Made by a program: the position numbers and the translations under genes. From Hadesarchaea archaeon (GTDB lineage: Archaea > Hadarchaeota > Hadarchaeia > Hadarchaeales > Hadarchaeaceae), in assembly GCA_030616305.1 (NCBI GenBank), contig JAUWXQ010000004.1:1-32638 (forward strand): a stretch of DNA of 32,638 nt, in the 5' to 3' direction. How positions within the stretch are numbered: the stretch's first letter is position 1; each line of letters opens with the position of its first letter. Of the stretch, positions 1,437-29,828 are shown one piece after another. The notes under the pieces are model-generated. The model did not search any database and had not been told where the DNA came from. It was given only the letters and a program-made list of their open reading frames with translations.

Positions 1437-2528
1437 CTATCGTGAGAGCGGTATCAGTGTTGTTTCAAGTCGGTCGTAAGTTGGATATTCTTCTACCAAC
1501 GCAAATTTTAGTTCGGGTTCAAGCTTAGCTAATTTTTCCGCGACAAACCAGTGGAGCTCTATCCTGCGTTTTTGTCTGTCAATGACGATGAACTCAGCCG
1601 GAATCCCATGCTTGAGCATGAGGCGTCTGCGGACGAGGACGAGTTTCTCTGGTGGCAAGTCCTGAACCACCCCCTTGACCAAAAGCCCCTCCTCTGTGAT
1701 AACCTCGTGGGGGCTCACGACGTTTTTGGCCCTGCGTTTCAGTCGGTTGCGGAGCTGAACGGCATCCTTGAGTGCACTGGGACAGTAGTGGATGTTAAGC
1801 GCGGTGTTCGCGGCGGCCCACTTAAGAGCCCTAACAGCGGTTTCCTCGCTTCCTTTGACTGCCATTGACTCGTCCGACTTGATCTCGAAACCGTGGGCCT
1901 TGAGCTGCGACAGGTTCGTGTCCGAAAATTCCAGCTCATTCAAGTTGATGAAACTGCAGTTGATCCGGTTTAGGTCTCGAAAAAGCGATATGATTCTCGT
2001 GTATCCGTTTGGAATTGCCGGAATTTCCACGCCCGCTTGAAGCCCGGCCCGCAAAGCCCGCTCGACTGGATTCACTGACCAAGTATGAAACCTGACCTCA
2101 TCGAGTCCCGCCTGTTTCAATTTGCGCAGCTGTTCTCGCGAAAGCTCACCGCCGCAATACATATGGATGTGGTGTCGTCTACCAAACTTACGCTTGAGCA
2201 GCCGTATGTAACGCAAAGTGCGCCTGAAGCGTAGTGATGGGTCACCCCCGGTTATGCCCGTGCCCAGGGCGTCCATGAGCTTGGCTTCCTCGACGATATC
2301 CTGCGTAGACTTCACGGGACGTTCGTTCGCATATACCACATCGCGGCCCCTCCGTTTCTCAGAGAGAGGGCAATAGTAGCACGCCTGCGCACACAATCCC
2401 GTAAGAAACAGCACAAGCTTGGTCCCTCTAATGCAGAGCTTGCAGCCGCGGGGCATCTCGCCGAGCAACAAGGAGTTCGCCGGTGTTCTGACTATTTTAC
2501 GGCGGTTGTTTTTCTTAATGGATCTCAT
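1437..2528 (-). CDS. Radical SAM protein (PFL-activase-like, probably the COG2108 type)
   Basis: CAQACYYCP (CX3CX2C cluster), upstream GCKLCIRGTKLVLFLTG, GTGITGGDPSLRFRRTLRYIRLLK. Confidence 0.85.
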   Translation of the reverse strand: MRSIKKNNRRKIVRTPANSLLLGEMPRGCKLCIRGTKLVLFLTGLCAQACYYCPLSEKRRGRDVVYANERPVKSTQDIVEEAKLMDALGTGITGGDPSLRFRRTLRYIRLLKRKFGRRHHIHMYCGGELSREQLRKLKQAGLDEVRFHTWSVNPVERALRAGLQAGVEIPAIPNGYTRIISLFRDLNRINCSFINLNELEFSDTNLSQLKAHGFEIKSDESMAVKGSEETAVRALKWAAANTALNIHYCPSALKDAVQLRNRLKRRAKNVVSPHEVITEEGLLVKGVVQDLPPEKLVLVRRRLMLKHGIPAEFIVIDRQKRRIELHWFVAEKLAKLEPELKFALVEEYPTYDRLETTLIPLSR

Positions 2529-3050: not shown

Positions 3051-3593
3051 TTGGTGGTCGGTGTAAAAACTCAGGTCCAGAATATCGTCTTATCTGTTAC
3101 ATACGAAGATGTCAAGTTCAATCTGGAGCGGCTGGCCAGATCTCTGGATGAGGCGCGCTACGACCCAGAGGTCTTCCCAGGGATTGCTTACAAATCAATG
3201 GATCCCAAGGCCTCCTTTCTTATCTTCTCCTCTGGCAAGATGAACTGCGTCGGCGCGAAGAGCATGAACGATGCAAAACTGGCGATCAAGAAGTTGACGA
3301 GAAAGCTCAAAAAGGTCGGGGTGAAGATAAAATCAGAACCCCAAGTCAAAGTCCAGAACATCGTCGCGTCGTTCGATTTTGGGCGCGAGTTCGACCTAGA
3401 GCGAATCGCACGAACTTTCGACAACACAGAGTACGAGCCTGAGGTGTTCCCTGGTCTCGTGTTCAGATTAGAGGAACCAAAAGTAGTCGTGCTGCTTTTC
3501 GTTTCGGGTAAGGGAGTCTGCGCGGGCGCGAAGAGCATGGCTGATATCAAGAGAGCGGGCGCCAAGATAATAAAACTATTGAAACGACACTGA
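3051..3593 (+). CDS. tbp: TATA-box-binding protein (divergent), TTG start
   Basis: Two TBP repeats: VQNIVLSV...FPGIAYKSMDPKASFLIFSSGKMNCVGAKS and VQNIVASFDFGREFDLERIARTFDNTEYEPEVFPGLVFRLEEPKVVVLLFVSGKGVCAGAKS. Confidence 0.92.
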   Translation: MVVGVKTQVQNIVLSVTYEDVKFNLERLARSLDEARYDPEVFPGIAYKSMDPKASFLIFSSGKMNCVGAKSMNDAKLAIKKLTRKLKKVGVKIKSEPQVKVQNIVASFDFGREFDLERIARTFDNTEYEPEVFPGLVFRLEEPKVVVLLFVSGKGVCAGAKSMADIKRAGAKIIKLLKRH

Positions 3594-3648: not shown

Positions 3649-4782
3649 ATGGCGAAAACCGTTATTGTTCGCTACGGTGAGTTGGCCCTGAAAAGCGAGC
3701 CCGTGCGCAGGCGTTTCGAGTGGCGCCTTATCTCTGCCATAAATTTGGCGCTGAAGGGTTTGGAATACGCAATCGAGAGAGAGCGCGGCAGGATCTTTGT
3801 CTATACAGAATCCCCGACCTCGGTGACCAAACGCCTATCGCGGGTTCCCGGAATAGTATCGGTCAGCTCGGCCACCAAAGTCGAAGCGAACATGAATGAA
3901 ATCCGCAAGTCCGCGTTAAGAGTAGCTAAAAAAGTCCTCGGCCCGGGTAGGAGTTTTGCTGTCCGTACCTCGAGAGTCGGAAAACACCCGTTCTCCAGCA
4001 CGGACGTGAACGTTGAAGTTGGCTCAGCTATTCTATCTAAAGTCAAAGGCGTTCACGTGAATTTGTCCTCTCCTGATCGCAAGATTTTCATAGAAGTGCG
4101 CGGAAAAAACGCCTACGTGTTCACAGAAACTGCGGAGGGAGTTGGGGGGCTCCCTGTGGGTACCCAAGGTAGTGTTGTGGCTCTTTTCTCTGGAAGCCGA
4201 AACGATACCGCTGCTGCATATTTGATGATGAAACGAGGTAGCACCGTTTTTCTGGTGTCCCCGGACCTGCGCACCCATAATAACGGTAAGGCGCAGAGGA
4301 TTGTGACAGCCCCAGCGAAGAAACTCTCCGATTTTGACTCCAAACTCGAATTGCGGGTATTCTCCTTCGGCAAAGTGCTAAACGGATTGAGGACGGTAGC
4401 TATGGGCAGGTATGCCTACTACATTTGTAAACGAAGCGCCCTGCGGGCGGCCGATGCCATAGCCGAGCAGGTGGGGGCGGGAGCCATCGTAGTGAGTGAT
4501 GATGCCAAACAAATTGCCGCCCAGAAACTGGCTAATCTCAGCGTGATAGATGAAGCTTGTAAGCTGCCGGTCCTGAGGCCCCTTGCGGGGATTAGCAGCG
4601 CCGAGATAGAGCGACTTAAATTTAAAGTAAAGCTGCCTCCGCGAGCCAAAGAGGTATGTCCTTTTCCACCCCCCCGAGATGTCATGAGTTTAGAGAAAAT
4701 ACATGAGTTGGAGGAGGGCATGAAAATCGGCGCCCTCGTCGAAGAATCCCTTTCAAAGGTCAGAGCCATCAAACTGAGGTGA
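3649..4782 (+). CDS. ThiI-like THUMP protein with degenerate PP-loop
   Basis: THUMP region FAVRTSRVGKHPFSSTDVNVEVGSAIL...EGVGGLPVGTQGSVVALFSG then SGSRND instead of SGGxDS; ThiI C-terminal pattern LPVLRPLAG retained. Confidence 0.88.
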   Translation: MAKTVIVRYGELALKSEPVRRRFEWRLISAINLALKGLEYAIERERGRIFVYTESPTSVTKRLSRVPGIVSVSSATKVEANMNEIRKSALRVAKKVLGPGRSFAVRTSRVGKHPFSSTDVNVEVGSAILSKVKGVHVNLSSPDRKIFIEVRGKNAYVFTETAEGVGGLPVGTQGSVVALFSGSRNDTAAAYLMMKRGSTVFLVSPDLRTHNNGKAQRIVTAPAKKLSDFDSKLELRVFSFGKVLNGLRTVAMGRYAYYICKRSALRAADAIAEQVGAGAIVVSDDAKQIAAQKLANLSVIDEACKLPVLRPLAGISSAEIERLKFKVKLPPRAKEVCPFPPPRDVMSLEKIHELEEGMKIGALVEESLSKVRAIKLR

Positions 4783-6065
4783 AGTCAGTGAATTTGGTCG
4801 TCCAGCCAGCTACCTCTCTTTCGGGAGAAATCGAGCTACCTCCATCGAAACTTCACACACAGATCGCTTGTGCACTAGCCATACTGGCCGAGGGCAAGAG
4901 CACGATCGAGTTCCCGCTCCGGGTGAAGGACACCAACGTGATGCTGAAGGCTGCGGAGATCATAGGGGCCACGGTGAAGCGGACACAGGAAAGATGGTCC
5001 ATATGGGGGGTCGGGAGGGATTTGAAACCCGCCCAAAATGTCATCGATGCAAAGAACTCTGGCACGGCTCTAAGTCTGCTCACGTCAATCGCGACCCTCG
5101 CACCAACTTCAACCATACTAAACGGAGACATCCAACTGCGCTCGCGCCCCATGCCTACCTTGTTGCGGGCGCTCCGTCGTCTAGGTGCTGATGTCCACTC
5201 CACGAAACCCGATGACAGCCCGCCATTTGTCGTTTTTGGCGGGGGGCTTAACGGGGGAAAAGTACGACTCAACGATGCTGAGGCGCGATATCTACCTGCC
5301 GTGTTTCTGTCTGCCCCCTACGCAAAAAAGAAAGTCGAGTTCTCGATCCACCCGAGCGAAAAAAAGTTCCAACTTGAATCAACACTCGGACTGATGAAAA
5401 TTGCGCGCGCGAAAATAACTGAGCACAGCGGCGGGGTTTCAATTCTAAACCACCCATATCGTGCATTTAATTACAGGGTACGGCGGGAAGTGGTGGGAGC
5501 GGCACCGTTTATCGTGGCGGCCGGCTTGACGAAATCAGAGCTCAAACTTCGTGGATCAAGGGAAATTTCTTTCCGGGATACCGCGTTCCTCCAAGCCCTC
5601 AAATCCTTTGGGCTGAGGGTGCACTTCTCGAGGAAGAGCATCGAGATTGGAGGGCGACATAGACTTCGAGCAGCGCGGTTGGACCTCTCTTGTGTGCCAG
5701 AACTCCTGCCGTTGATGGCGGTACTCGCGTGCGGGGTTCGGGGCAAGACACTCATCCGAAACGCAGAGGAGGCTAGGACGATGAAGTCTGACCGCATCTC
5801 TGCTATCGCACAGGAGCTACGCAGGATGCAGGCAAGGGTACTAGAGCAGAACGACGGGCTGATCGTTCAGGGGGCAGCCAAGCTCAGGGGATGCGAGGTA
5901 GATGGTCACGACGATTACGCGGTTGTGTCTGCCCTAGCCGTGGCTGGCCTAGTGGCGGAGGGAAAAACCGTGATAAAAAACGGCGCCGATGCGCTTGGGA
6001 CATCTTATTCTCGCTTTGTCTCCACTTTCCAAAGCTTGGGGGCCGATGTGAGCTACTCTTCTTAG
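4779..6065 (+). CDS. EPSP synthase (AroA)-family protein with degenerate active site
   Basis: Full-length EPSP-synthase-like pattern (LPPSK, NSGTALSLLTSIA, RSRPMPTLLRALRRLGA, ALAVAGLVAEGKTVI, FQSLGA), but hallmark substrate-binding motifs are altered; GTGA overlap with the upstream gene. Confidence 0.85.
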   Translation: MKSVNLVVQPATSLSGEIELPPSKLHTQIACALAILAEGKSTIEFPLRVKDTNVMLKAAEIIGATVKRTQERWSIWGVGRDLKPAQNVIDAKNSGTALSLLTSIATLAPTSTILNGDIQLRSRPMPTLLRALRRLGADVHSTKPDDSPPFVVFGGGLNGGKVRLNDAEARYLPAVFLSAPYAKKKVEFSIHPSEKKFQLESTLGLMKIARAKITEHSGGVSILNHPYRAFNYRVRREVVGAAPFIVAAGLTKSELKLRGSREISFRDTAFLQALKSFGLRVHFSRKSIEIGGRHRLRAARLDLSCVPELLPLMAVLACGVRGKTLIRNAEEARTMKSDRISAIAQELRRMQARVLEQNDGLIVQGAAKLRGCEVDGHDDYAVVSALAVAGLVAEGKTVIKNGADALGTSYSRFVSTFQSLGADVSYSS

Positions 6066-6115
6066 CAGCACAAGATTTTAACTTCTGCATTCAGTGCTTA
6101 GTATGGTGTGGTAGG

Positions 6116-6574
6116 TTGAGGGGCCAGCTGAGTATTGAGTTCCTGATCGTGTTAACCGGCATGCTCCTAATCCTAGCCGCAGTTACGATGCCCCTTTCTG
6201 ACCAAGCTCGCGCGGACGCTGAGAAGATAACCAAGCTTGCTGACGCTCGTGAGGCTGCGAACACGATAGCGAATGCCCTCAACACAGTTTACGCTGGCGG
6301 CGTTGGGTCGAAGCAGACGGTTGAGTACTGGCTCCCTGCAGATATCCTTTCGATCTCTTTTGACAATGGAGCGGAGAATCGTTTGGATGTTAAAATAGAA
6401 TTGAACCTCGAAAGCGATAACGTGGTACGGGTTAGCACAATTCTATCGAGTAGGGAGGATGAAAATCGCGTAATTGTTGGTAACGAAAACTTCGAAGTTA
6501 GCTCTGGTCTCCATCGAATGACTTTCACATACGAGTACACCTATAATAGGCGTATTGAAATCAAGGTGGCTTGA
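6116..6574 (+). CDS. Class III signal peptide (prepilin-like) protein
   Basis: TTG start at 6116 gives MRGQLSIEFLIVLTGMLLILAAVTM, cleavage motif RG|Q; the ORF track start at 5891 lies inside the upstream gene. ANALNTVYAGG motif. Confidence 0.85.
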   Translation: MRGQLSIEFLIVLTGMLLILAAVTMPLSDQARADAEKITKLADAREAANTIANALNTVYAGGVGSKQTVEYWLPADILSISFDNGAENRLDVKIELNLESDNVVRVSTILSSREDENRVIVGNENFEVSSGLHRMTFTYEYTYNRRIEIKVA

Positions 6575-6575
6575 G

Positions 6576-7055
6576 ATGCGGGGACAATCAGCCATCGAAT
6601 ATCTGCTGATCTTCTCGACCGTGCTTGTGTTGTTTGCAACGGTTACCCTCGGACAGATGATAAATCCCGGGCAGGAGGCCGCTAAGGACGCCCTCTACCT
6701 TTCCCAAGCTAGGTCAGCTGTGGATGCCATCGGTGGAGCGATAAACACCGTCTACAGCGATGGGCAGGGAGCGGTGAAGAGCGTCAGCTTCCAGATTGAT
6801 CAGAGCTGGGGCCTGCAGCTCGATAATGCAGAAAATAAACTCAGGATACAAATCCAAACCTCTCAGAGAAGCGAGAACGTGGAAGACAACCTACGGTACG
6901 AAATCGATAATTACCACTCGCTTTTGAACATCTCCTCCGGCACCTACACGGTAATTGTGGAATGGCCAGAGGACGGCAGCATATCGGAAAGCATAGACAG
7001 CGGCGCCCTCACCGACAAGAAAATCTACATCTATATCAGGCCGCGCGGGAGGTAG
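6576..7055 (+). CDS. Class III signal peptide (prepilin-like) protein
   Basis: MRGQSAIEYLLIFSTVLVLFATVTL; GAINTVYSDG motif; start adjusted from 6555 to ATG 6576. Confidence 0.88.
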   Translation: MRGQSAIEYLLIFSTVLVLFATVTLGQMINPGQEAAKDALYLSQARSAVDAIGGAINTVYSDGQGAVKSVSFQIDQSWGLQLDNAENKLRIQIQTSQRSENVEDNLRYEIDNYHSLLNISSGTYTVIVEWPEDGSISESIDSGALTDKKIYIYIRPRGR

Positions 7056-7056
7056 G

Positions 7057-7485
7057 ATGATGAGGAACGAAAAAAGAGGATTTTTCTCAATCGATGCGCT
7101 GTTTGCGGTCACCCTCCTCCTGATCATCTCGACATCATTCTTGAACATTTACGAAGGACGAAAGGTCGGGGCCGAGCTGATGGGCGCTAGGTTGGAGGCA
7201 AAGCTCGTCGGTGAAAAGCTCGCGGCAGCCATAAACACCGTCTACGCAAACGGGTCGAACTTCGAGCTCTACGTAGACCTACATGAGGGCATAGGGAGCT
7301 ATTTCTACCAAATTACTTTCGATAACACCACACGACAAATCTCAGTTGAAAACTTGGCTTGGGGAGCTGTTAGTGTAGGGGTTGTCTGCAAAAATGTCCA
7401 GAATTTCGTGCTTGGATTGGATAACTTGGAGAACACGATTCGAGTGTACTGGGTGGGGAACCAGATAAGGGTCGTGAACGCATGA
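7057..7485 (+). CDS. Prepilin-like protein
   Basis: KRGFFSIDALFAVTLLLIISTSFLNIYE signal/helix; AAINTVYANG motif shared with the two upstream proteins. Confidence 0.75.
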   Translation: MMRNEKRGFFSIDALFAVTLLLIISTSFLNIYEGRKVGAELMGARLEAKLVGEKLAAAINTVYANGSNFELYVDLHEGIGSYFYQITFDNTTRQISVENLAWGAVSVGVVCKNVQNFVLGLDNLENTIRVYWVGNQIRVVNA

Positions 7486-7889
7486 GGGGCCAGTCCAGCG
7501 CTGAGATGTTGATCTTGATCTCGGCAATCCTGATAGCAGTCGCATCGATGCTCTACTTGGGCATAGGAGGCAACGAGTCGGCGGTCGTCATGCGGGCCGC
7601 GCGAGATGGGGCCGAGAACGCGATCGCAGCATTGGACGCCGAATATGGGTGTTCAATCAACATCGAGGAAGTCGGGTTCGATGCGGGCATGATTACAATA
7701 ACCGTTTCAGTCCGTGATATCCCAACGGTAGACAATTTTGACAACATGATAAAGGAAAACATTAGGGAGGGAGCTCTTAAGCACATCCAGAATGCTGTGG
7801 GTGGTTCCTTCCCCTTGACCGCAGGGCCTGTCAAGACCTCATACTACACCTACGATGTGACAGTCGAAGTGAGGAGGGTGACAAAATGA
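7482..7889 (+). CDS. Class III signal peptide (prepilin-like) protein
   Basis: MRGQSSAEMLILISAILIAVASMLYLGIG; ATGA overlap with the upstream gene. Confidence 0.85.
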   Translation: MRGQSSAEMLILISAILIAVASMLYLGIGGNESAVVMRAARDGAENAIAALDAEYGCSINIEEVGFDAGMITITVSVRDIPTVDNFDNMIKENIREGALKHIQNAVGGSFPLTAGPVKTSYYTYDVTVEVRRVTK

Positions 7890-8842
7890 ACGAGCGAGGG
7901 CAAGTCTTCACGCTAGACATGTTTTTCGCGCTGGCACTGACCGCGCTGATCGTGAGCTACTCTGGGCTAGCTCTAGAGCAGGCGCGCAGGCAGGCTGAAA
8001 GCTACGCACTGCGGTATTCCCTCGAGCGTACCGCAAACGATGCCGCAGATGTGCTCGTGAAGACGGCCGGCGACCCCCAAAACTGGTCGCAAAATTTTGA
8101 AACTCTCGAAACGCTGGGGCTGGCTGAAAACGATTCCGCAGGTAACCCCATCCCAAACAGCCTTTCGGTGGGGAAGTTCGAAAATCTCAGACAGCTGTGC
8201 GCGAGTGCAAACTGGGACGCTAACCCAGACGCGGCACAGGCGGTGAGGGCTCTTTTTGGCGACTCCGAAAACTTTGAGATACGATTGATTGACGAAAACA
8301 CCGGCGAAAACTTGTGGCCCCCCATTTACCCACGGTGGGATGTCAAAGCTACCTCTGGAGTTGAAAACTCTCTCGAAGTGGTGATCGTAAAACGCTTAAT
8401 CTCTACACAGGTGGAGGTCGAAAACAAAATAGAAAACATACGGCACATCAAACAACCCGAGCTACTCCAGATGTACTTCACGGTGGGGACAAATGAACTT
8501 AACACCCGCGACTGGTACATAGTTGTAAAACGGTACCTCGCACCCCTGAGCCAACCTGTAGTTTGGATTACGGTAAATCGCGATATGGATACTGGTAACC
8601 CCGACTGGAAATTCCCTCCTGACGATCCTCCATTTAAAATGTGGTGGCATGGTAACCCTCAAGACCCCCCCAGCAATGACTTGCAGGAGGGCCAGAACTA
8701 CATATGGGTTCGGGTCGCTGGTAGGGGGAAAAGTAAGGGTAATCCGGTTGATGTATCTATCGTTTCGATGCCGTTTTGTTCATCGTCCAGATTTGTGGAG
8801 CTTCCCCCAGTTGCCACGCTCGAGGTGAGGGTATGGAGGTAA
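7886..8842 (+). CDS. Large prepilin-like protein
   Basis: MNERGQVFTLDMFFALALTALIVSYSGLALEQARRQAES; RG|Q-type signal followed by a hydrophobic helix; ATGA overlap. Confidence 0.7.
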   Translation: MNERGQVFTLDMFFALALTALIVSYSGLALEQARRQAESYALRYSLERTANDAADVLVKTAGDPQNWSQNFETLETLGLAENDSAGNPIPNSLSVGKFENLRQLCASANWDANPDAAQAVRALFGDSENFEIRLIDENTGENLWPPIYPRWDVKATSGVENSLEVVIVKRLISTQVEVENKIENIRHIKQPELLQMYFTVGTNELNTRDWYIVVKRYLAPLSQPVVWITVNRDMDTGNPDWKFPPDDPPFKMWWHGNPQDPPSNDLQEGQNYIWVRVAGRGKSKGNPVDVSIVSMPFCSSSRFVELPPVATLEVRVWR

Positions 8843-8846
8843 GGCA

Positions 8847-9977
8847 ATGAGATTTCAAAGGGACCAAAGAGGATTCATCTTCAGCCTCGACGCGACGCTG
8901 GCGATGCTAGTTGTACTGATAGTGATGGCGGGGGTAGCGCGTGTGACAGGGGGCGAGCTGGTCTATGGGCAGCACGGCTACTTGCGTTTAGAGCGATACG
9001 CAAATGACACGCTGGAGGTATTACAGCTCACAGGCACGATGGATATCATCATAAGTTTAGTTGAGTACGGAGCGAACGAGAATGCCGAAAATATGGCAAG
9101 GGAGGAGCTCCGAAAGATGCTGCCGGCGGAGATACAGTTCAAGCTCATGATTAGAGATAATAGGCTGACGGTTTATCCGAGCGATGCTGCCGGCTGGGAC
9201 ACGGCGTTTGCAAATGCAGAGGAAATAGCTACAGCAACCCGTATATCGATCTTTGAGGGAGTCGGTGATACCACAGTCGCATTGTGGCACTTCGATGAGG
9301 GTATAGATAATAAAGTTTATGACGAAACTCAAAACAACAACGATGGCACGATTTACGGAAACGTGAGCTGGACCACCGGCAAGTACGGCTATGCGCTGGA
9401 CTTCCCAGGTACCTCCGGCAACTACGTTTCCGTCCCACATTCCGAGAGTTTGGCACCATCGGGGGGTCTGCCTAATCTGAGTGTCGAGGGTTGGGCATAT
9501 GTGGACGGATCTCAGATATCAACTTTCGCTCAAAAGGATTATGTTTGGGTAACACGCGGGTGGTTGATGAAAATTGAGCCTGCGAGTGATCCGAGCATGT
9601 TCAAGTACACAGTACTCTTGTACGCCGGCGGCCAGTATGGAGTTGCCATCAACGATGCTGCTCCACTTAACACGTGGGTGCATCTCGCTTTCACCTACGA
9701 GGGTTCGAGTGGTACTATTAAGGTTTATGTGAACGGGACTGACCGGACGGCCGATGATAGCTGGAACTGGAGGGGCGTCGGCGGTAACGTGGCAACTGGT
9801 ACGGATAATTTGTTCATCGGTTGGGGTGATGCAGGATACTTCAAGGGAAAAATTGACGAGATTCGAATCGAGAACCAGGCTTTGACTGCGGAGGAAATAG
9901 CAACCGATGTAGTGAGTGCTATGCGGGAGTTCGGGCCGGTAACCCTCTACCTTTGGCGAGGGGCATCAGTGGGGTGA
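8847..9977 (+). CDS. Prepilin-like protein with internal LamG/concanavalin A-like domain
   Basis: RGFIFSLDATLAMLVVLIVMAGV signal/helix; VALWHFDEGIDNKVYDETQNNNDGTIYGNVSWTTGKYGYALDFPG...SVEGWAY...NTWVHLAFTYEG...IKVYVNG...IDEIRIENQALTAEEI is a LamG-like signature. Confidence 0.85.
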   Translation: MRFQRDQRGFIFSLDATLAMLVVLIVMAGVARVTGGELVYGQHGYLRLERYANDTLEVLQLTGTMDIIISLVEYGANENAENMAREELRKMLPAEIQFKLMIRDNRLTVYPSDAAGWDTAFANAEEIATATRISIFEGVGDTTVALWHFDEGIDNKVYDETQNNNDGTIYGNVSWTTGKYGYALDFPGTSGNYVSVPHSESLAPSGGLPNLSVEGWAYVDGSQISTFAQKDYVWVTRGWLMKIEPASDPSMFKYTVLLYAGGQYGVAINDAAPLNTWVHLAFTYEGSSGTIKVYVNGTDRTADDSWNWRGVGGNVATGTDNLFIGWGDAGYFKGKIDEIRIENQALTAEEIATDVVSAMREFGPVTLYLWRGASVG

Positions 9978-10993
9978 TGACATTGAAATTACGTAACGAT
10001 CAACGTGGGTTTGTTATGAGCGGGATCGCACTCCTGCTCGTGTTGCCGGCGATGTTGTTAGCATCTTCATGCCTTAGGATTATCGAAACAGGGGGGGAAA
10101 CCACCTCACTTCAAGCCCTCTCGGATAAGGTGAGCTATACTGGGCACGACATCGAGCGCATGATCGAATACATGTCAAACAATAGGCTGCCAATCAATGA
10201 CAATACCCTTAATGAACTCGCTGAAAATTACCGGGCCGTTACGGGATTACTTGTAAACCTTAGCTTAAAGCTACCTGAACTCAGCGTCGACGATAACACG
10301 ATTGCGCTGTATCACTTCAACGAGGGGTCAGGAAACACGGCTCATGACAGTACGGGAAGAAACGATGGCACAATCATCGGCGCGACTTGGGTTACTGGAA
10401 AATTTGGTACCTGGCTTCACTTTAGCGATAGTCAATACGTTACGGTCCCTGACTCTCCAAGTTTGAGCCCTTCAGGGGGGCTGGAGGAGCTAACCGTGGA
10501 GTACTGGATCTATCCAATCCAGTTGCCGGTTGAAAGTTTGGGAAATTACCCCAAACCAACGAATAAAGCAGTGGCATCTCCAGAGTCGTGGTTTACCGCG
10601 ATTTGTAGGAACAATGAGGATGACGACTTTGATTATTGCGCGTGGGTGGGATCTGAGGGGGGGGTTTCTTTGGGTTGGCTCAGGAACGCAGCACCGATAG
10701 GTCAGTGGACCCATCTTGCTATGACCTATGATGGGCACGCTCTCACTTGGTATGTCAACGGGGAAAACAGGAAGAGCGTTGTCAATGATTTTGGAAACAT
10801 AGTGAATAACACAGGGAGTCTTTATATTGGGTGTTATTGGGCTAATGGCGAATTCAGGATGGACGAACTCCGAATCGAGAACCGCGCCCTGACCGCCAGC
10901 GAGATTCAAACGGATTATCATAACGACGTGAGTGTCGATGTCAAGGATCCTAGGGATGTGGCACGTTTCTCTGAAAACATCGTGCTGACCTAA
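9977..10993 (+). CDS. Prepilin-like protein with LamG/concanavalin A-like domain
   Basis: DQRGFVMSGIALLLVLPAMLLAS signal/helix; IALYHFNEGSGNTAHDSTGRNDGTIIGATWVTGKFG...GQWTHLAMTYDGHALTWYVNGE...MDELRIENRALTASEIQTDY; TGATG overlap with the upstream gene. Confidence 0.82.
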   Translation: MTLKLRNDQRGFVMSGIALLLVLPAMLLASSCLRIIETGGETTSLQALSDKVSYTGHDIERMIEYMSNNRLPINDNTLNELAENYRAVTGLLVNLSLKLPELSVDDNTIALYHFNEGSGNTAHDSTGRNDGTIIGATWVTGKFGTWLHFSDSQYVTVPDSPSLSPSGGLEELTVEYWIYPIQLPVESLGNYPKPTNKAVASPESWFTAICRNNEDDDFDYCAWVGSEGGVSLGWLRNAAPIGQWTHLAMTYDGHALTWYVNGENRKSVVNDFGNIVNNTGSLYIGCYWANGEFRMDELRIENRALTASEIQTDYHNDVSVDVKDPRDVARFSENIVLT

Positions 10994-11802: not shown

Positions 11803-12570
11803 CTATCCACCTTGTAGCGCCAACACGAACCGCCAATACAAGTCCCCATACAACACCGCTATGAAGACACCGGCGCCGAGGGCTGGAGCAAAAGGAATCC
11901 CCTTCTTGATCTTTATCTCGTTTTTGAGTTTCCGCTCGCGGACAAGACGTTTGAGCACTCCCACCTGATATCGTGTGAGGCCCGCGGCCCTGCGGGGGTT
12001 CGTGAAGGTGCGGTCCCATTGGGGTTTTCGTCCAAACCTCGCGCTCCACCGCCCGACCTCCCCACCCTTTTCGTAAATCGTCTCCGCCGGGATCATGCCC
12101 TCCTTTAACCCGGTGATTTTTACGTGCTCGTAAAGCGCACCACGACCCCTGATGCGACAGATTACTGCGTACACGAGAAGTATCGGTATGGCTACGAGGA
12201 CGCTGTTGAGCAGAATTGTGAGTGGAAAAAGCGGATAAGTGCTTGAGTACGGTGCTGGAGAATAAGCAGGAACAAAAACCGGGAGCAATGCACCGAGCGC
12301 TGTAAAGAGTTTGACGTCGCCGCCAGCCCAGCCGCCCGTCAGCCACATCGCGTAGCCAATGGCGAAGGCTATCGCGGCCCCCAGCGCTCCAGATGCCACC
12401 ATTAAGAGGTTCCCTCGGAAGAGCCCCAACAAGAAGTAGAAGAGGATGCCCCCCGCGATGAGCGGAAAATTCAACTTGTTCGGGATTATGCGCCACCGGA
12501 GGTCGGTATAAACAGCTATGCACACCGCTCCAAGGGCGATTGCGGCGGGTATGTGCTCGGGTTCGAACAA
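11803..12570 (-). CDS. Class III prepilin peptidase (A24 family, FlaK/EppA/PibD-like)
   Basis: YTDLRWRIIPN and GGWAGGDVKLFTALGALLP carry the two catalytic aspartate motifs. Confidence 0.92.
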   Translation of the reverse strand: MFEPEHIPAAIALGAVCIAVYTDLRWRIIPNKLNFPLIAGGILFYFLLGLFRGNLLMVASGALGAAIAFAIGYAMWLTGGWAGGDVKLFTALGALLPVFVPAYSPAPYSSTYPLFPLTILLNSVLVAIPILLVYAVICRIRGRGALYEHVKITGLKEGMIPAETIYEKGGEVGRWSARFGRKPQWDRTFTNPRRAAGLTRYQVGVLKRLVRERKLKNEIKIKKGIPFAPALGAGVFIAVLYGDLYWRFVLALQGG

Positions 12571-22784: not shown

Positions 22785-22952
22785 ATGCGGAAGTCCCTAG
22801 AAGTGCTGGTGAAGGAATCGGGCTGTGCGTTAGTCCTGGGTATAGACGGAGAGGGTGAGGTAGTGGAAACTATACTGACCTCACGCTTCGAGCGGAATTA
22901 CAAGTGGAAGCGATATACGGGCAGCGACCGACTTTCGGAGGGTAAAAAATGA
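22785..22952 (+). CDS. Small protein (55 aa), first gene of the his operon
   Basis: ATG at 22785 about 30 nt downstream of the TATA box; stop overlaps the hisC ATG. Confidence 0.6.
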   Translation: MRKSLEVLVKESGCALVLGIDGEGEVVETILTSRFERNYKWKRYTGSDRLSEGKK

Positions 22953-24019
22953 TTTCGAAACGCGTTAGGGAGATGCTTCGGTCAAGGGCTTCGTACCCGC
23001 TCGCCCGTAAGTACGATGTAAGGGGAGAGGTCATCAACCTGGCCTCTAACGAAAGTCCCTACGGCCCATCGCCACGCGTGCTTCAAGCACTCAGGCGTGA
23101 GATGGACAGAGTTGGCTTGTATCCTGACCCACGTGCCACCAAGCTCAAAACAGCGATAGCCGATTACGTGGGCGTGAGGACCGAGTGTATCACAATCGGG
23201 AACGGTTCCGACGAGCTCATGGACCTCTCCTGCAAGGCTTTTTTGGACCCAAGAGATCGGGCGCTCATCCCCTTACCGACGTTTGCGATGTACGAGCTGG
23301 CTTGCAGAAGTAACGGGGGGGTACCGAGATTTTTCAAGCTGCCGAATTTCGAGTGGCGCACGGGAGATCTCAAACGCGCCTTGGGTGGAGCGAAGTTGGC
23401 GTTTTTGGGGAGGCCTAACAACCCCACAGGTAACGGCGTAAGCCTAGAGGGGCTGCGGTATCTCCTCAAAAGCGGGAAGCTCATCATCGTGGACGAGGCA
23501 TATGTGGAGTTCGCTGGATATTCTGTCGCGAAGCTGGCACCGAAGTTCAAGAATCTGATCGTGCTTAGAACTTTTTCAAAGGCTTTCGGGCTCGCGGGTC
23601 TAAGAGTTGGCTACGCTGTTGGAAACCCCAAGTTGATCGAAGTGCTTGAGAGCATCCGCGCACCGTTCAACGTCAACCGCATAGCCCAAGTTGCGGCGGT
23701 TGTAGCTCTGAGCGACAGAGGCTATCTGCGCAAAGTCGTGGGCGCAACGCGGAAGAACCGCACGTACTTGCGCCGAGAACTCTTGAAGCTGGGCCTGCGC
23801 GTGTTGCCATCGGACGCGAATTTCTTAATGGTAAACGTGACGCCTCTCAAGACAAATGCACCAAAACTATGTGATTATCTAGCGCGAAAGGGGATCTTAA
23901 TCCGTGAGTTATCGAACTTCAGGGGCGCTGGGCCACGTTGGGTTAGAATCAGCGTCGGTAAACCCGAGCAAAACGAGAGGCTTGTAAACGCGATAAAACA
24001 ATTCAAAGGAGGTGTTTAA
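22949..24019 (+). CDS. hisC: Histidinol-phosphate aminotransferase
   Basis: NLASNESPYGPSP, GNGSDELMDL, FLGRPNNPTGN, VDEAYVEF, RTFSKAFGLAGLRVGYAV. Confidence 0.96.
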   Translation: MISKRVREMLRSRASYPLARKYDVRGEVINLASNESPYGPSPRVLQALRREMDRVGLYPDPRATKLKTAIADYVGVRTECITIGNGSDELMDLSCKAFLDPRDRALIPLPTFAMYELACRSNGGVPRFFKLPNFEWRTGDLKRALGGAKLAFLGRPNNPTGNGVSLEGLRYLLKSGKLIIVDEAYVEFAGYSVAKLAPKFKNLIVLRTFSKAFGLAGLRVGYAVGNPKLIEVLESIRAPFNVNRIAQVAAVVALSDRGYLRKVVGATRKNRTYLRRELLKLGLRVLPSDANFLMVNVTPLKTNAPKLCDYLARKGILIRELSNFRGAGPRWVRISVGKPEQNERLVNAIKQFKGGV

Positions 24020-24020
24020 A

Positions 24021-24884
24021 GTGATGGTCAAAATTGCCGTGCCGAAAGGACACCTAGAGGAAACGACCGTCAAGTTGCTCCAAGACGCGGGGATTGGAGT
24101 AATCGGCAGAGACGGACGCCAGCTCTTCGCCAGAACGAACGACCCGGAGATAGAACTGGTATTCGTGCGGGCGGAAGACATCCCAGATTTCGTCGCCAGA
24201 GGATCGACTGACTTGGGCATCACTGGCTACGACCTGATGCGCGAAAGTGGCGATGTAGATGTTGCAGAATTGCTGGACCTAAGTTATGGTTACACTCGTC
24301 TGGTGGTGGCAGCAAGCGAGAAATCCGGCATCAAATCAGTACGCGACATAAAACCGGGCGCGAGGGTGGCGACTGAATTTCCAACGAACACCAAACGGTA
24401 TTTCGCAGAAAAGGGAATCAAGATCGAACTCGTCGACATCACGGGAGCCGCTGAGATATCGCCGCTGATAGGATTGGCGGACTTGATCGTTGATGTAACG
24501 AGCACAGGCACAACTCTGCGCGCACACGGACTGAAGATAATCGACACGATCTTGGAAAGCACATCGAGGTTGATAGCCAACCGCCGAAGTTTGAAGGAGA
24601 AGAAGGCCAAGATCGACGACATAGTTACGGCCATCAACAGCGTGGTCAAGGCGAGAGGAAAGAAGTTGGTATTGATGAACGTGCCCGAAGCAAAGCTTGA
24701 AAAAATCAAGCGGGTGATGCCGGGGATGGCAGGACCAACAGTCTCCCGTGTCGAAGGTGCAAAAGGGATGCTAGCGGTTCAAGCGGTGGTCGATGAAGCC
24801 GAGGTCTACAAAGTCGTGAAACGCGCCAAGCAGGCGGGGGCCAAGGACATCCTCGTCATACCAATCGAAAGAGTGCTACCGTGA
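24021..24884 (+). CDS. hisG: ATP phosphoribosyltransferase (long form)
   Basis: IAVPKGHLEETTVKLLQDAG, STDLGITGYDLMRESG, DVTSTGTTLRAHGLK; start chosen after AAAGGAGGTG. Confidence 0.95.
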   Translation: MMVKIAVPKGHLEETTVKLLQDAGIGVIGRDGRQLFARTNDPEIELVFVRAEDIPDFVARGSTDLGITGYDLMRESGDVDVAELLDLSYGYTRLVVAASEKSGIKSVRDIKPGARVATEFPTNTKRYFAEKGIKIELVDITGAAEISPLIGLADLIVDVTSTGTTLRAHGLKIIDTILESTSRLIANRRSLKEKKAKIDDIVTAINSVVKARGKKLVLMNVPEAKLEKIKRVMPGMAGPTVSRVEGAKGMLAVQAVVDEAEVYKVVKRAKQAGAKDILVIPIERVLP

Positions 24885-25633
24885 AAATTCAGAGGGGTGT
24901 AGGCGTGTTGGTTGTTCCGAGCGTGGATATCATGCGGGGACGTTGCGTCCAGCTGGTGGGAGGAAAGCCAGATACCGAGCGGGTTTACGGTGACCCAGTT
25001 GAGCTAGCACAACGATGGGTGGCTGAAGGAGCAAAGTACCTACATGTGATTGACCTCGATGCCGCGATGGGCACGGGGGACAACTTCCAGAAGGTCGCTG
25101 ATGTCATATCGAACGTGAGGGTCGGCGTAGAGGTAGGGGGTGGAATCCGAACGCTTGAACGGGCGAACGAACTCTTGGGGATAGGGGCTGACAGGGTAAT
25201 CTTAGGTACGGCCGCGGTCAAGAACCCTAATCTCGTCGCGAAACTCGTCGAACTGGCAGGCGGTGCACGGGTCATGGTCGCGCTTGACTCTCGCGCAGGT
25301 AAGGTAACCATAGAGGGCTGGCGCTCTCAGACCGAAAAAACAGCACTCCAGTTGGCGAAAGAGTTTGAAAGGATGGGTGTGGGCTCATTGTTGTATACGA
25401 GCGTCAACGTTGAGGGGAGCATGCGTGGCGTGGCTGCACGTGAAATCCGAGAGCTCGTGAGCGCCGTCAAGATACCGGTGTTCGCTTCCGGAGGAGTGGG
25501 AACACTAGAAGACGTGCGCATAGCGCGGGAGGCGGGGGCAGCGGGGCTGGTTCTCGGGATGGCGTTATACGAGCGCAAGTTCACGTTAAGAGAGGCAATG
25601 GAGGTGGCGAGAGATGCGGGTCGGAAAGGTTGA
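24881..25633 (+). CDS. hisA: ProFAR isomerase
   Basis: VVPSVDIMRGRCVQLVGGKP, LHVIDLDAAMG, VEVGGGIRT, FASGGVGTLEDV. Confidence 0.95.
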   Translation: MKIQRGVGVLVVPSVDIMRGRCVQLVGGKPDTERVYGDPVELAQRWVAEGAKYLHVIDLDAAMGTGDNFQKVADVISNVRVGVEVGGGIRTLERANELLGIGADRVILGTAAVKNPNLVAKLVELAGGARVMVALDSRAGKVTIEGWRSQTEKTALQLAKEFERMGVGSLLYTSVNVEGSMRGVAAREIRELVSAVKIPVFASGGVGTLEDVRIAREAGAAGLVLGMALYERKFTLREAMEVARDAGRKG

Positions 25634-26189
25634 GCGAAAAACGAAGGAAACAAAAGTTGGGGTTAGGATCAACCTGGACGGGAGCGGCAAGGCAAGAGTT
25701 GACACCACGATCAAGTTCTTCGACCACCTACTCTCGAGCTTCGCCAAGCACGGCTGTTTCGACCTCGACCTCAAAGCTCGTGGCGACTTCGAACACCACA
25801 TCGCCGAGGACACGATGATCGCATTAGGAGAGGCAATCGAGCGGGCATTGGGTAAGAAAGTCGGAATCGAGCGCATGGGTGACGCGATAGTGCCGATGGA
25901 CGATGCACTGGTTATGGCCGCTGTGGACCTGGGTGGGAGAGCCTTCCCCGACATAGAGGCCAAGTTTGCGAAGCGGAAGTTGGACGACCTCAGCAGTGAC
26001 TTGGTAGCCCACCTGTTGCAGGCGCTGGCGACGAACGGAAGGTTCAACCTGCACGTGAAGGTCATGCGCGGCAAGAACGACCACCACAAGGCGGAAGCTA
26101 TCTTCAAGGCACTAGGGGTAGCGTTAGCCAGGGCAGTGAGCAAGACATCTCGGAGACGAGGTGTGCCGAGTACCAAGGGAGTGATCTAA
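25614..26189 (+). CDS. hisB: Imidazoleglycerol-phosphate dehydratase
   Basis: TTIKFFDHLLSSFAKHGCFDL, EHHIAEDTMIALGEA, KNDHHKAEAIFKALG. Confidence 0.97.
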   Translation: MRVGKVERKTKETKVGVRINLDGSGKARVDTTIKFFDHLLSSFAKHGCFDLDLKARGDFEHHIAEDTMIALGEAIERALGKKVGIERMGDAIVPMDDALVMAAVDLGGRAFPDIEAKFAKRKLDDLSSDLVAHLLQALATNGRFNLHVKVMRGKNDHHKAEAIFKALGVALARAVSKTSRRRGVPSTKGVI

Positions 26190-26941
26190 CGTACAAGCGA
26201 ATTATTCCTTGCCTCGACACAAAATATGGGCAACTTGTCAAAGGAGTGCGCTTCAGGAACGTGAAAGAAGTCGGTGACCCAGCTGAGTTTGCCAAGCGTT
26301 ACGAGAAGGACGGGGCGGACGAGTTGGTGCTTCTCGACATCACGGCGACTCCAGAGAACAAGCCAACGTTGCTCGAAGTGGTCCGAAGAGTGTCGAGTGT
26401 GATATCGATCCCGCTAGCAGTTGGTGGAGGCATACGTAGTGTTGACGACGCCAGAGCAGTTTTGGATGCCGGGGCCAGTAAGGTCTCGGTGAATACAGCC
26501 GCTGTCAGGAGACCAGAGCTTATGAGCGAACTCTCCCGCGAATTCGGAAAGGAGAAGACGGTGTGCGCCATCGACGGGAAGAAAATCGGAGAAAACAAGT
26601 GGGAAGTCTGCATCAACGGCGGAATGAAACCCACCGGCATCGACATGATCGAGTGGGCCAAACGCGTTGAATCTCTTGGCGCGGGCGAGATTCTCTACAC
26701 GGGAGTACACACCGACGGAACGCAGGATGGATACGATATCGAAGGCACTCGCGCAATAGCTAAAGCAGTGAGTATTCCAGTAATAGCCTCGGGTGGCGCT
26801 GGCAAACTCGAGCACATTTATGATACATTGACCGCTGGCCGAGCCGATGCTGCTCTTGCTGCAAGCGTCTTCCACTTTGGTACCTACACGGTGAAACAGG
26901 TCAAAGACTATCTTCGTGAGCGAGGAGTGGAGGTGCGATAG
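26189..26941 (+). CDS. hisF: Imidazole glycerol phosphate synthase cyclase subunit (ACG start proposed)
   Basis: In-frame sequence upstream of GTG 26246 encodes (T)YKRIIPCLDTKYGQLVKG, the conserved HisF N-terminus with its catalytic Asp; no ATG/GTG/TTG in frame near it. Confidence 0.88.
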   Translation, partial: TYKRIIPCLDTKYGQLVKGVRFRNVKEVGDPAEFAKRYEKDGADELVLLDITATPENKPTLLEVVRRVSSVISIPLAVGGGIRSVDDARAVLDAGASKVSVNTAAVRRPELMSELSREFGKEKTVCAIDGKKIGENKWEVCINGGMKPTGIDMIEWAKRVESLGAGEILYTGVHTDGTQDGYDIEGTRAIAKAVSIPVIASGGAGKLEHIYDTLTAGRADAALAASVFHFGTYTVKQVKDYLRERGVEVR

Positions 26942-28243
26942 TTGGGGCCATTCAAAATAGTGAAGTTGGGCGATTATCTCCAGAGAGAGTGGGAGTTCCT
27001 GCTAAAACGCTCAGAGCTGGACGTGGATTCCGTCCTACTGCGCGTGGTGAAGATAGTTTCAGACGTTAGAAGGGATGGCGACCGGGCTCTGCTGGACTAC
27101 ACCGCGAGCCTCGATGAGGTAAAACTCAGCGTTGACGAGCTCCGGGTGAGTGAGGCAGAGTTCCGCTCGGCTTACAAGCAACTCGACGCGACGACGGTGA
27201 AGGCGATCAAGGGTGCGGCCGCGGCGATAAAGAAGTTTCACCTCAAGCAGCTACCGCGGGGATGGATGACGCAACTCGGTCCGGGTGTAAAGGCTGGGCA
27301 GCTCGTGCGGCCGCTTGAGAGCGTGGGCGTCTACGTTCCTGGAGGGCTCGCGAGATATCCATCGAGCCTGCTGATGGCGGTGGTTCCGGCGAGGGTGGCA
27401 GGCGTGGAGCGAGTCATCGTCTGCACGCCACCGGGTAAGGACGGGAAAATCGATGCCGCAGTGCTCGTGGCCGCCAAAGTAGCGGGTGTAGATGCGGTGT
27501 TCAAGGTGGGCGGGGCTCAAGCGATAGCGGCAATGGCGTACGGAACAGAGACTGTGCCCAAAGTGGACAAAATTGTTGGCCCCGGAAACGTTTACGTAGC
27601 CTCAGCGAAGCAGTTGGTAGCCCCAAACGTCAACATAGACTTCATTGCTGGTCCAAGTGAGGTTCTCATCATCGCAGACAACTCGGCAGAACCGAGGTTC
27701 GTCACGGCGGACCTCGTCTCACAAGTTGAGCACGACACTAATGCCGCGGCTGTGCTAGTGACAACTTCGGATGAGCTAGCGTCAAAGGTTCAGGGACTCG
27801 CGGAGAAGATGATGGAGGAGAACCCGCGCAGACAAGTGGTGCGCAAGGCGCTGCAGAAGTACGGTCGGATAGTTGTGGTGCGGAACTTGGACGAAGCAAT
27901 CAAATTCGCCAATGCCTATGCCCCCGAGCACCTTGAGCTTATGGTGAAACAACCAAAAGGGGTGCTGAAGCGGATAAAGAACGCGGGAAGCATCTTCGTC
28001 GGTGCTTACTCCCCTGTGGCTGCAGGAGATTTCGCAGTAGGGCCAAACCACATCCTGCCCACCGGTGGCGCGGCCAAGAGGCGTTCCGGCCTTTCAGTGC
28101 TCGATTTTGTCAAGCTCCCAACCGTACAGGAACTCTCCAAACAGGGACTGAAGCGGGTGGCCAAGGTAGCGGAGCGACTGGCGGAGATAGAAGGCCTGCC
28201 GGGGCACGCCCGGAGCATCAAGGAAAGGATGAAGGAGGCGTGA
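26942..28243 (+). CDS. hisD: Histidinol dehydrogenase (TTG start)
   Basis: VGVYVPGGLARYPSSLLMAVVPARVAGV, KIVGPGNVYVASAKQLV, FIAGPSEVLIIAD, SQVEHDTNAAAVLVT. Confidence 0.97.
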   Translation: MGPFKIVKLGDYLQREWEFLLKRSELDVDSVLLRVVKIVSDVRRDGDRALLDYTASLDEVKLSVDELRVSEAEFRSAYKQLDATTVKAIKGAAAAIKKFHLKQLPRGWMTQLGPGVKAGQLVRPLESVGVYVPGGLARYPSSLLMAVVPARVAGVERVIVCTPPGKDGKIDAAVLVAAKVAGVDAVFKVGGAQAIAAMAYGTETVPKVDKIVGPGNVYVASAKQLVAPNVNIDFIAGPSEVLIIADNSAEPRFVTADLVSQVEHDTNAAAVLVTTSDELASKVQGLAEKMMEENPRRQVVRKALQKYGRIVVVRNLDEAIKFANAYAPEHLELMVKQPKGVLKRIKNAGSIFVGAYSPVAAGDFAVGPNHILPTGGAAKRRSGLSVLDFVKLPTVQELSKQGLKRVAKVAERLAEIEGLPGHARSIKERMKEA

Positions 28244-28524
28244 AAATGGGAACGGAGATACTTGACGAAGTGTTTGCCGTCATCGAGGACCGACGCGATA
28301 GACCAAAAGAAGGCTCCTACGTTTCCGGCCTACTCGCGAGCGGCAAGGTGCCGGAGAAGATCGAGGAAGAGGCTGGAGAGCTCATCGAGGCCGGGAAAGG
28401 CGGGAACAGGCAAGCGATAGCGCACGAGGCGGCCGACTTGATCTTCCACGCGATGGTTCTGCTCGCGGCGAAAGGAGTAAAGCTGGAGGAAGTTATGGAG
28501 GAGCTCAGACGGAGACGAGGGTGA
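28240..28524 (+). CDS. hisE: Phosphoribosyl-ATP pyrophosphohydrolase
   Basis: EEEAGELIEAGKGGNRQAIAHEAADLIFHAMVLLA. Confidence 0.93.
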   Translation: MKMGTEILDEVFAVIEDRRDRPKEGSYVSGLLASGKVPEKIEEEAGELIEAGKGGNRQAIAHEAADLIFHAMVLLAAKGVKLEEVMEELRRRRG

Positions 28525-28528
28525 TTGG

Positions 28529-28927
28529 TTGAAACTGGCCCAAGCTAAAGCTCAAGCGATCGTGAAGGCGCTGAAGTTCAAAGATGGTTTTGTCACAGCT
28601 GTGGCTCGTGACTTCAAGACGAAGGAAGTGCTGATGGTAGCGTTGCAAAACGAGCAGGCAGTGCTTAAAACTCTGACCACCGGCCTGATGCACTACTGGA
28701 GCCGATCTCGCCAAAAGCTATGGTTGAAAGGTGAGCAGTCGAGGCACTATCAACGCGTGAAAAGAGTCTGGGTAGATTGCGACGGGGATGCCTTACTGTT
28801 CGATGTCGAGCAGGTGGGCGCCGCTTGTCACGAGGGATACCGCTCATGTTTCTACCGCAAGGTCAAGAGGGGGAAGCTGGTCCGTATTCTAAAGCAGAAG
28901 TTCAGACCAAAAGACGTCTATGGATAG
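28529..28927 (+). CDS. hisI: Phosphoribosyl-AMP cyclohydrolase
   Basis: MHYWSRSRQKLWLKGEQSRHYQRVKRVWVDCDGDALLFDVEQVGAACHEGYRSCFYRK. Confidence 0.96.
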   Translation: MKLAQAKAQAIVKALKFKDGFVTAVARDFKTKEVLMVALQNEQAVLKTLTTGLMHYWSRSRQKLWLKGEQSRHYQRVKRVWVDCDGDALLFDVEQVGAACHEGYRSCFYRKVKRGKLVRILKQKFRPKDVYG

Positions 28928-29828
28928 TGTAGGCGTGGTGAATCTCAGAACGACGGTTTCAGGTGCCTTCAGGCGGAGTTCATCAGCGATCGGCATAGTG
29001 ATCGTGGTGGCCTTCACGGTAATGATACTAAGCACAGCATACCATATGCTGGCGTTCTCTCCAACCGAGTTCGTTGAAAAGCCCGATGTCCAGGAGTACG
29101 AAAACGCGCTAGAAAATATCTCAGTAATGGACGACTGGACGAGAACCCAGTACTATTGGTCACACAACCTAAGAGTCGCTGGAATCTGTGCGGTTGGGAC
29201 ACCTGCGTACTTCGGGTTCAACTCAGTGGTGGCAACTAACTACATGATCGGCATGTCCCTCACTTACTACTACCACCTCTATGGGTCAACGAGCATGTTG
29301 GCGGTCTCGGCCATGTTTTTCATGCACGGCCTGCTTGAGCTTACGGGAATTTACATCATCGCGGCAGTTTCGCTGCGCGTGGCTTGGAACTTATGGAAAG
29401 GCTTGGGGGGCCTGGTGGCAATCACGGGCAAGGAGGGAAAACACTGGTCATGGAAGTTGACAAAATGGGAAAAGCGAGAAATTTGCAAGCACAAGGGCAC
29501 GATAAAACTGTTGTTGAGCGATTTCATCACGCTTTTCGCAATCGGGGCGTTTTTCATATTCCTCGCGGCACCGATAGAGGCATACATCTCCCCAGAGATG
29601 GGGGCCATTTTCTTTGCAACACCGGTACTTGCTGTGGCCTTCCTAGCGGTTGTTGGGCTCATATATGCATACATTGCAGCGCGGGGTTTCAACGCGATGC
29701 GTAGGGATCTGAAGTTTGTCTGGAAGGAGATGAGATTAGCATTCAAGGGGAAATGGCGGCCAGCTCAGCTCTCGTTTTTGATATTCATGATATTCTTTGT
29801 GATGATGTTGCTCCGCATCATGCTTTGA
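28920..29828 (+). CDS. SpoIIM/DUF95-like integral membrane protein
   Basis: FMHGLLELTGIYIIAAVSLRVAWNL motif and multiple TM helices; overlaps hisI by 8 nt. Confidence 0.68.
   Translation: MDSVGVVNLRTTVSGAFRRSSSAIGIVIVVAFTVMILSTAYHMLAFSPTEFVEKPDVQEYENALENISVMDDWTRTQYYWSHNLRVAGICAVGTPAYFGFNSVVATNYMIGMSLTYYYHLYGSTSMLAVSAMFFMHGLLELTGIYIIAAVSLRVAWNLWKGLGGLVAITGKEGKHWSWKLTKWEKREICKHKGTIKLLLSDFITLFAIGAFFIFLAAPIEAYISPEMGAIFFATPVLAVAFLAVVGLIYAYIAARGFNAMRRDLKFVWKEMRLAFKGKWRPAQLSFLIFMIFFVMMLLRIML

Follow-up and report, generated by a model that had tools for sequence, protein, structure and literature searches.

The aroA2 locus and its predicted product

The window, that is, the whole 32,638-nucleotide stretch of DNA analysed here, is contig C39 in a Hadarchaeota genome (G000) of 877 kb and about 90% completeness. 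The named relatives of the AroA2 protein all belong to Hadesarchaea/Hodarchaeaceae, in line with a host from Hadarchaeota. The gene aroA2, which encodes a divergent paralogue with the EPSP-synthase fold, occupies positions 4779..6065 on the forward strand, and its frame of 428 codons is uninterrupted. The product is 428 residues long when read from GTG 4779 and 425 residues long when read from GTG 4788. The latter is the more likely start, because a Shine-Dalgarno-like GAGGTGA, read directly from the forward strand at 4776..4782, lies 5 nt upstream of it and because it agrees with the starts of relatives. This GAGGTGA overlaps the stop codon TGA (4780-4782) of a thiI-like gene (3649..4782, forward strand), which codes for a ferredoxin-like domain, a THUMP domain and a PP-loop domain. 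This gene lies directly upstream of aroA2 and either overlaps it or is 5 nt away from it, depending on the start chosen. The other conserved upstream neighbour is the gene for the TATA-binding protein (TBP; 3051..3593, forward strand).

Several further genes of the window were recorded. A radical-SAM-like protein (1437-2528, reverse strand; best NCBIfam score 26 bits) is conserved beside TBP in both AroA2-bearing families. Directly downstream of aroA2, the run at 5891-10993 encodes small proteins with class-III-signal-like N termini (e.g. RGQSSAEMLILI), which are conserved in many relatives of family f1, and two later small proteins of this run have LamG-like regions by eye. A prepilin-peptidase-like gene is found at 11803-12570, a long histidine cluster, by eye hisC-hisG-hisA-hisB-hisF-hisD-hisE-hisI with no obvious hisH, at 22949-28927, and a gene for RNA 3'-terminal phosphate cyclase (RtcA) at 29818-30900.

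An earlier note on this DNA, made from the letters alone, had taken the product for a full-length EPSP-synthase-fold protein with an intact frame. In agreement with this, Pfam EPSP_synthase (PF00275) matches AroA2 with 230 bits over residues 9-415, essentially its whole length. The top-scoring family is still aroA (TIGR01356 of NCBIfam), but the score of 263.5 bits is about 24 bits short of the cut-off of 287.25; two AroA2 relatives score 270 and 183, both below 287, and the canonical paralogue scores 463. Descent from MurA is ruled out by a score of 82.9 bits to the murA equivalog, the cut-off of which is 392.7. The structure prediction that the note had proposed gives a confident EPSP-synthase fold, the AlphaFold2 model built from a 17-row alignment having a mean pLDDT of 92.1. 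Foldseek superposes this model on closed-form AroA with a TM score of 0.92 to AroA of C. burnetii (3slh) and with lower scores to open forms, the closed form being a property of the predicted model and no sign of a bound ligand.

Distribution, descent and selection of AroA2

A canonical AroA with its catalytic residues (405 Pfam bits) is encoded on a contig of the same genome other than that of aroA2 (G000:C46:17472-18704), and chorismate synthase AroC adjoins it at G000:C46:18831-19862. The second canonical aroA that the earlier note had suggested looking for is thus present, and so are both of the shikimate pathway genes examined, namely those for AroA and AroC. Since the canonical AroA and the adjacent AroC are both in this genome, the EPSP synthase step is covered without AroA2. 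Two canonical AroA–AroC pairs occur in one other genome bin (G020:C7 and G020:C28), perhaps a mixed bin.

AroA2, whole or partial, is carried by 23 of the 28 Hadarchaeota genomes, the genome of the window included; among the same 28 it was not found in G001, G004, G017 and G022, nor in G027, which has no AroA of any kind. An AroA2 profile gives the full-length copies 548-735 bits and every other protein, canonical AroA included, 355 bits or less. No AroA2-like score was found outside Hadarchaeota among 397 relatives (Hadarchaeota included; about 370 from other archaea) and 29 genomes of one other phylum. A PMSF mixture tree unites the AroA2 proteins in a single clade (100/100), the stem of which measures 1.13 changes per site, and puts the canonical Hadarchaeota AroA (AroA1) into a separate clade. 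Constraining AroA1 and AroA2 to one clade gives p 0.41 in the AU test, by which a duplication from Hadarchaeota AroA1 is neither established nor rejected.

Pairwise dN/dS, near-identical pairs with too few changes left out, is about 0.12-0.23 among AroA2 and about 0.07-0.16 among AroA1. AroA2 is under purifying selection, which answers the question of dN/dS raised earlier. A dN/dS about twice that of AroA1 and the lack of AroA2 in some genomes would fit a slowly decaying relic that has been retained by chance alone. However, the complete copies have intact full-length frames, dN/dS is far below 1, the fold is predicted with confidence, and new residues have become invariant at cleft positions, so that this reading, already disfavoured, is highly improbable.

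The coexistence of two paralogues also brings up the idea that AroA2, devoid of catalysis itself, serves canonical AroA as a regulator or partner subunit, a prozyme. EPSP synthase acts as a monomer, which counts against this idea. As a rule the AroA1 and AroA2 genes lie on separate contigs, and no aroA–aroC cluster was seen to include aroA2. Moreover, AroA2 is the sole AroA match in G008, G012 and G021, where AroA1 and AroC are both absent, though these genomes are incomplete. What speaks for a prozyme is that AroA1 and AroA2 occur together in most genomes and that an enzyme-activating dead paralogue has a precedent in trypanosomatid deoxyhypusine synthase (PMC3663545). On this evidence a prozyme of AroA is very unlikely.

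Replaced and conserved residues of the cleft

AroA2 was compared with E. coli AroA (the reference being checked against 1g6s), 17 canonical Hadarchaeota AroA proteins and other archaeal AroA proteins. The motif changes listed in the earlier note are real in this alignment. In E. coli numbering, the replacements are S23L, R27I, R100S, S169-S170-Q171 to E-A-R, Y200Q, D313E, K340M, E341K, H385Y and R386A. Since nearly all of them are common to the whole AroA2 clade, they are neither chance nor sequencing error. The claim that nearly every shikimate- and PEP-binding residue has been lost was too strong, because K22, N94, G96, R124, R338, D343, R344 and D384 are kept. The absence of the C-terminal Lys (E. 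coli K411), which had been taken as a further sign, is uninformative, most of the canonical archaeal AroA proteins sampled having Val or Ile instead of Lys there as well.

All of the shikimate-3-phosphate (S3P) binding residues S23, R27, S169, S170, Q171, Y200 and K340 are replaced in the AroA2 of the window, most of them clade-wide. SKLHTQ (residues 23-28; 4845..4862, forward strand, as are all codons given below) stands in place of SKSxTxR, so that Lys24, the equivalent of E. coli K22, is retained, whereas Leu takes the place of S23 and Ile, in the next codon, that of R27. E168-A169-R170 (5280..5288), at the Ser-Ser-Gln of EPSP synthase, varies inside the AroA2 clade. On the PEP side, Arg123 (5145..5147; E. 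coli R124) is invariant across AroA2. As for the catalytic set K22, D313 and E341, K22 is kept, D313 corresponds to Glu308 (5700..5702), a Glu in 15 of 16 AroA2 proteins, and E341 is a Lys in all of them. The latter lies in M335-K336-S-D-R339 (5781..5795), which aligns with K340-E341-T-D-R344, so that the charge of the catalytic Glu is reversed in an invariant Lys and the Arg is kept. D379-Y380-A381 (5913..5921) replaces D384-H385-R386, Tyr and Ala each being present in 15 of 16.

The PEP/catalytic shell is thus conserved in a new form, consisting of K24, N93, R123, E308, M335, K336, R339, D379, Y380 and A381, of which K24, R123, K336 and R339 are invariant across AroA2. The mean conservation rank of the ten PEP/catalytic columns is 0.76 in AroA2 and 0.85 in canonical AroA, whereas that of the ranked S3P columns is 0.45 in AroA2 and 0.83 in canonical AroA. 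Since random columns are expected to have a rank of 0.5, the PEP/catalytic columns are constrained within AroA2 and the S3P columns are not. Some columns are conserved within each clade yet hold a different residue in the two, among them E341 (Lys), K340 (Met), D313 (Glu), H385 (Tyr), R386 (Ala) and W337 (Ala), and Phe153 is an invariant insertion in AroA2. The residue pattern of the cleft is that of a site that was changed and then fixed, not that of decay. Because the PEP/catalytic shell has been rewired yet conserved and the S3P subsite has eroded, the pattern speaks for a working ligand pocket over a dead cleft.

These data bear on whether AroA2 might still be an EPSP synthase, one whose active site has been remodelled. 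The signature patterns applied were those of PROSITE PS00104 and PS00885 for EPSP synthase. No AroA2 protein matches either pattern; all 17 canonical Hadarchaeota AroA proteins match the second, the first, in the form applied, being too strict even for many canonical proteins. The acid/base groups proposed for EPSP synthase are Glu341 and Asp313 (PMC12256929); both are replaced, and therefore ordinary EPSP synthase chemistry is unlikely for AroA2. That aroA remains its highest-scoring family and that its predicted closed fold is the same as that of AroA can be cited for a remodelled EPSP synthase. However, all three AroA2 proteins scored fall below the aroA cut-off, the S3P-binding residues vary within the clade, and a canonical AroA is present in the same genome, leaving this reading very little chance of being right. 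AroA2 is almost certainly an old AroA paralogue of Hadarchaeota that no longer makes EPSP. The proposal that it is not an EPSP synthase but a repurposed protein is well supported by the canonical AroA in the same genome, the clade-wide changes, the purifying selection and the conservation of many of the replacing residues. AroA2 is neofunctionalised, not decaying, because it is under purifying selection, has a confidently predicted fold and conserves the old PEP/catalytic shell in a new form.

A serious rival to the reading developed below is that AroA2 is an active small-molecule enzyme, namely a transferase (enolpyruvyl or related) that depends on PEP and has gained a new acceptor. PEP-side K22, N94, R124 and R344 are kept, with the rest of the shell conserved in its new form, and enolpyruvyl transfer to a nucleotide has a precedent in NikO and PolA, which convert PEP and UMP to 3'-enolpyruvyl-UMP (PMC5365060). 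However, E341, one of the two proposed acid/base groups along with D313 (PMC12256929), is a Lys in every copy, R386 has become Ala, the positions that once held the acceptor lack conservation, and no metabolic genes adjoin aroA2. A small-molecule transferase is rather unlikely.

Genomic association with ThiI and comparison with known systems

The genes around aroA2 in family f1 recur, with variations, in the order gCA - rSAM - MoaE - TBP - ThiI - AroA2 - pilin cluster, and thiI is directly upstream of aroA2 in those f1 genomes whose contig covers the position. In family f3, AroA2 comes after TBP on the contigs that cover the place (G023 and G025), and ThiI is encoded elsewhere. In G004, which is 92% complete, gCA-rSAM-MoaE-TBP are on one contig, thiI and aroA2 are both gone from the block, and no copy of either turned up in the rest of the genome. 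Among the 27 Hadarchaeota genomes with any AroA, 23 have the long THUMP-type ThiI together with AroA2, four (G001, G004, G017 and G022) lack the two, and none has one alone, a joint presence that extends to family f3, where the genes are unlinked; its weight is limited by gaps in metagenome-assembled genomes, by the linkage in f1, where joint loss may be one deletion, and by the unlinked cases being a few incomplete genomes. Counting against a tie to ThiI, G027, a member of another family, encodes ThiI but no AroA, family f3 has AroA2 beside TBP with ThiI not nearby, and aroA2 keeps TBP and further unrelated genes next to it just as stably.

The ThiI of the window has a degraded PP-loop (4189..4209, forward strand), SGSRNDT vs SGGIDSP in intact ThiI. 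The PP-loop (SGGxDS) is lost in all f1 ThiI proteins with a readable motif except those of G008 and G011. The fold of the window ThiI is predicted with confidence (pLDDT 88), and its N-terminal ferredoxin-like (NFLD)/THUMP part is better conserved than the C-terminal PP-loop domain in most pairs. In T. maritima ThiI, the N-terminal NFLD/THUMP part binds the acceptor stem and CCA end of tRNA, the PP-loop being the part that binds ATP (PMC4041423). A separate PP-loop-only protein (NF006222/ThiI C-terminal type, SGGIDSP) is present in 11 of the 15 genomes with a degraded ThiI PP-loop, the other four being 56-82% complete, and in two of the six genomes with intact ThiI. The loci concerned, besides the thiI-like gene of the window, include G000:C50:8806-9378. 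The simplest reading is that degraded ThiI and the separate PP-loop protein possibly make up a split tRNA 4-thiouridine synthase.

All 18 complete copies of AroA2 are basic (pI about 10, net charge +14 to +26), canonical AroA being nearly neutral (pI about 7.9), and about 25 columns have turned basic in AroA2, many of which hold acidic residues in AroA1. The case for RNA binding from strong positive charge is weakened, however, by HisC of the window, which at +31 is more basic than AroA2, and by about a third of the compared window genes being as basic as AroA2. Covariation of evolutionary rates between AroA2 and ThiI (partial r 0.44-0.54) did not single out ThiI; the genes for prepilin peptidase (PPP), a pilin (pilB) and AroA1 correlate with AroA2 about equally or better.

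The two-lobed fold of AroA2 is intact, with the S3P half of the cleft released from constraint and the PEP/catalytic half rewired (E341K, K340M, H385Y, R386A and D313E) and then conserved in its new form. On the likeliest working, though more doubtful than not, K24, R123, K336 and R339 would hold a group that is anionic or bears phosphate, and the lobes would still close on it. In place of a small sugar acid, the partner would be a molecule that ThiI brings or that is bound along with ThiI, tRNA being the simplest candidate. This would make AroA2 a partner of the THUMP-containing ThiI in binding or modification. This link is suggested by the coupling of the genes, by their joint presence and absence, including unlinked f3, by the conservation of the NFLD/THUMP part of ThiI and by the basic character of AroA2. 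The best explanation overall may be put with modest confidence, somewhat short of probable: AroA2 would be an anion-binding protein other than EPSP synthase that works with tRNA-binding ThiI. Quite unlikely is the further step that the EPSP-synthase fold now serves as a subunit acting on tRNA with a ThiI that is losing its own catalytic domain, the former PEP pocket perhaps accommodating a phosphate or enolpyruvyl group of RNA.

Few enzymes have been studied as thoroughly as EPSP synthase, and still most of one phylum carries a conserved non-EPSP-synthase paralogue; the papers searched held nothing on an archaeal EPSP synthase pseudoenzyme or on AroA of Hadesarchaea. Genomes that have both the canonical and the rewired copy form a clean natural series on the re-use of an active site. 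In reconstructions of the shikimate pathway of Hadarchaeota, AroA2 should not be counted as EPSP synthase. If the link with ThiI is functional, it would place the EPSP-synthase fold in tRNA biology.

Among known systems, prozymes such as that of trypanosomatid deoxyhypusine synthase resemble AroA2 in that an altered paralogue is kept beside an active one, but contact between AroA2 and AroA1 is unsupported by the evidence here. RtcA is built from a related repeated fold unit and exemplifies a fold class able to act on RNA; the sequence of AroA2 matches only the AroA and MurA families, and no descent from RtcA is claimed. MurA, which uses UDP-GlcNAc as its acceptor, shares the superfamily with AroA2 and, like NikO and PolA, provides a precedent for an acceptor other than S3P, but AroA2 scores 83 bits to MurA vs 263 to AroA. 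EPSP synthase (AroA, 3-phosphoshikimate 1-carboxyvinyltransferase, TIGR01356/PF00275) has full-length homology, the two-lobed fold (TM about 0.9) and K22, N94, R124, R338, D343, R344 and D384 in common with AroA2, which differs from it in S3P residues that are gone and variable, in E341K, K340M, H385Y, R386A and D313E, and in a score below the aroA equivalog cut-off.
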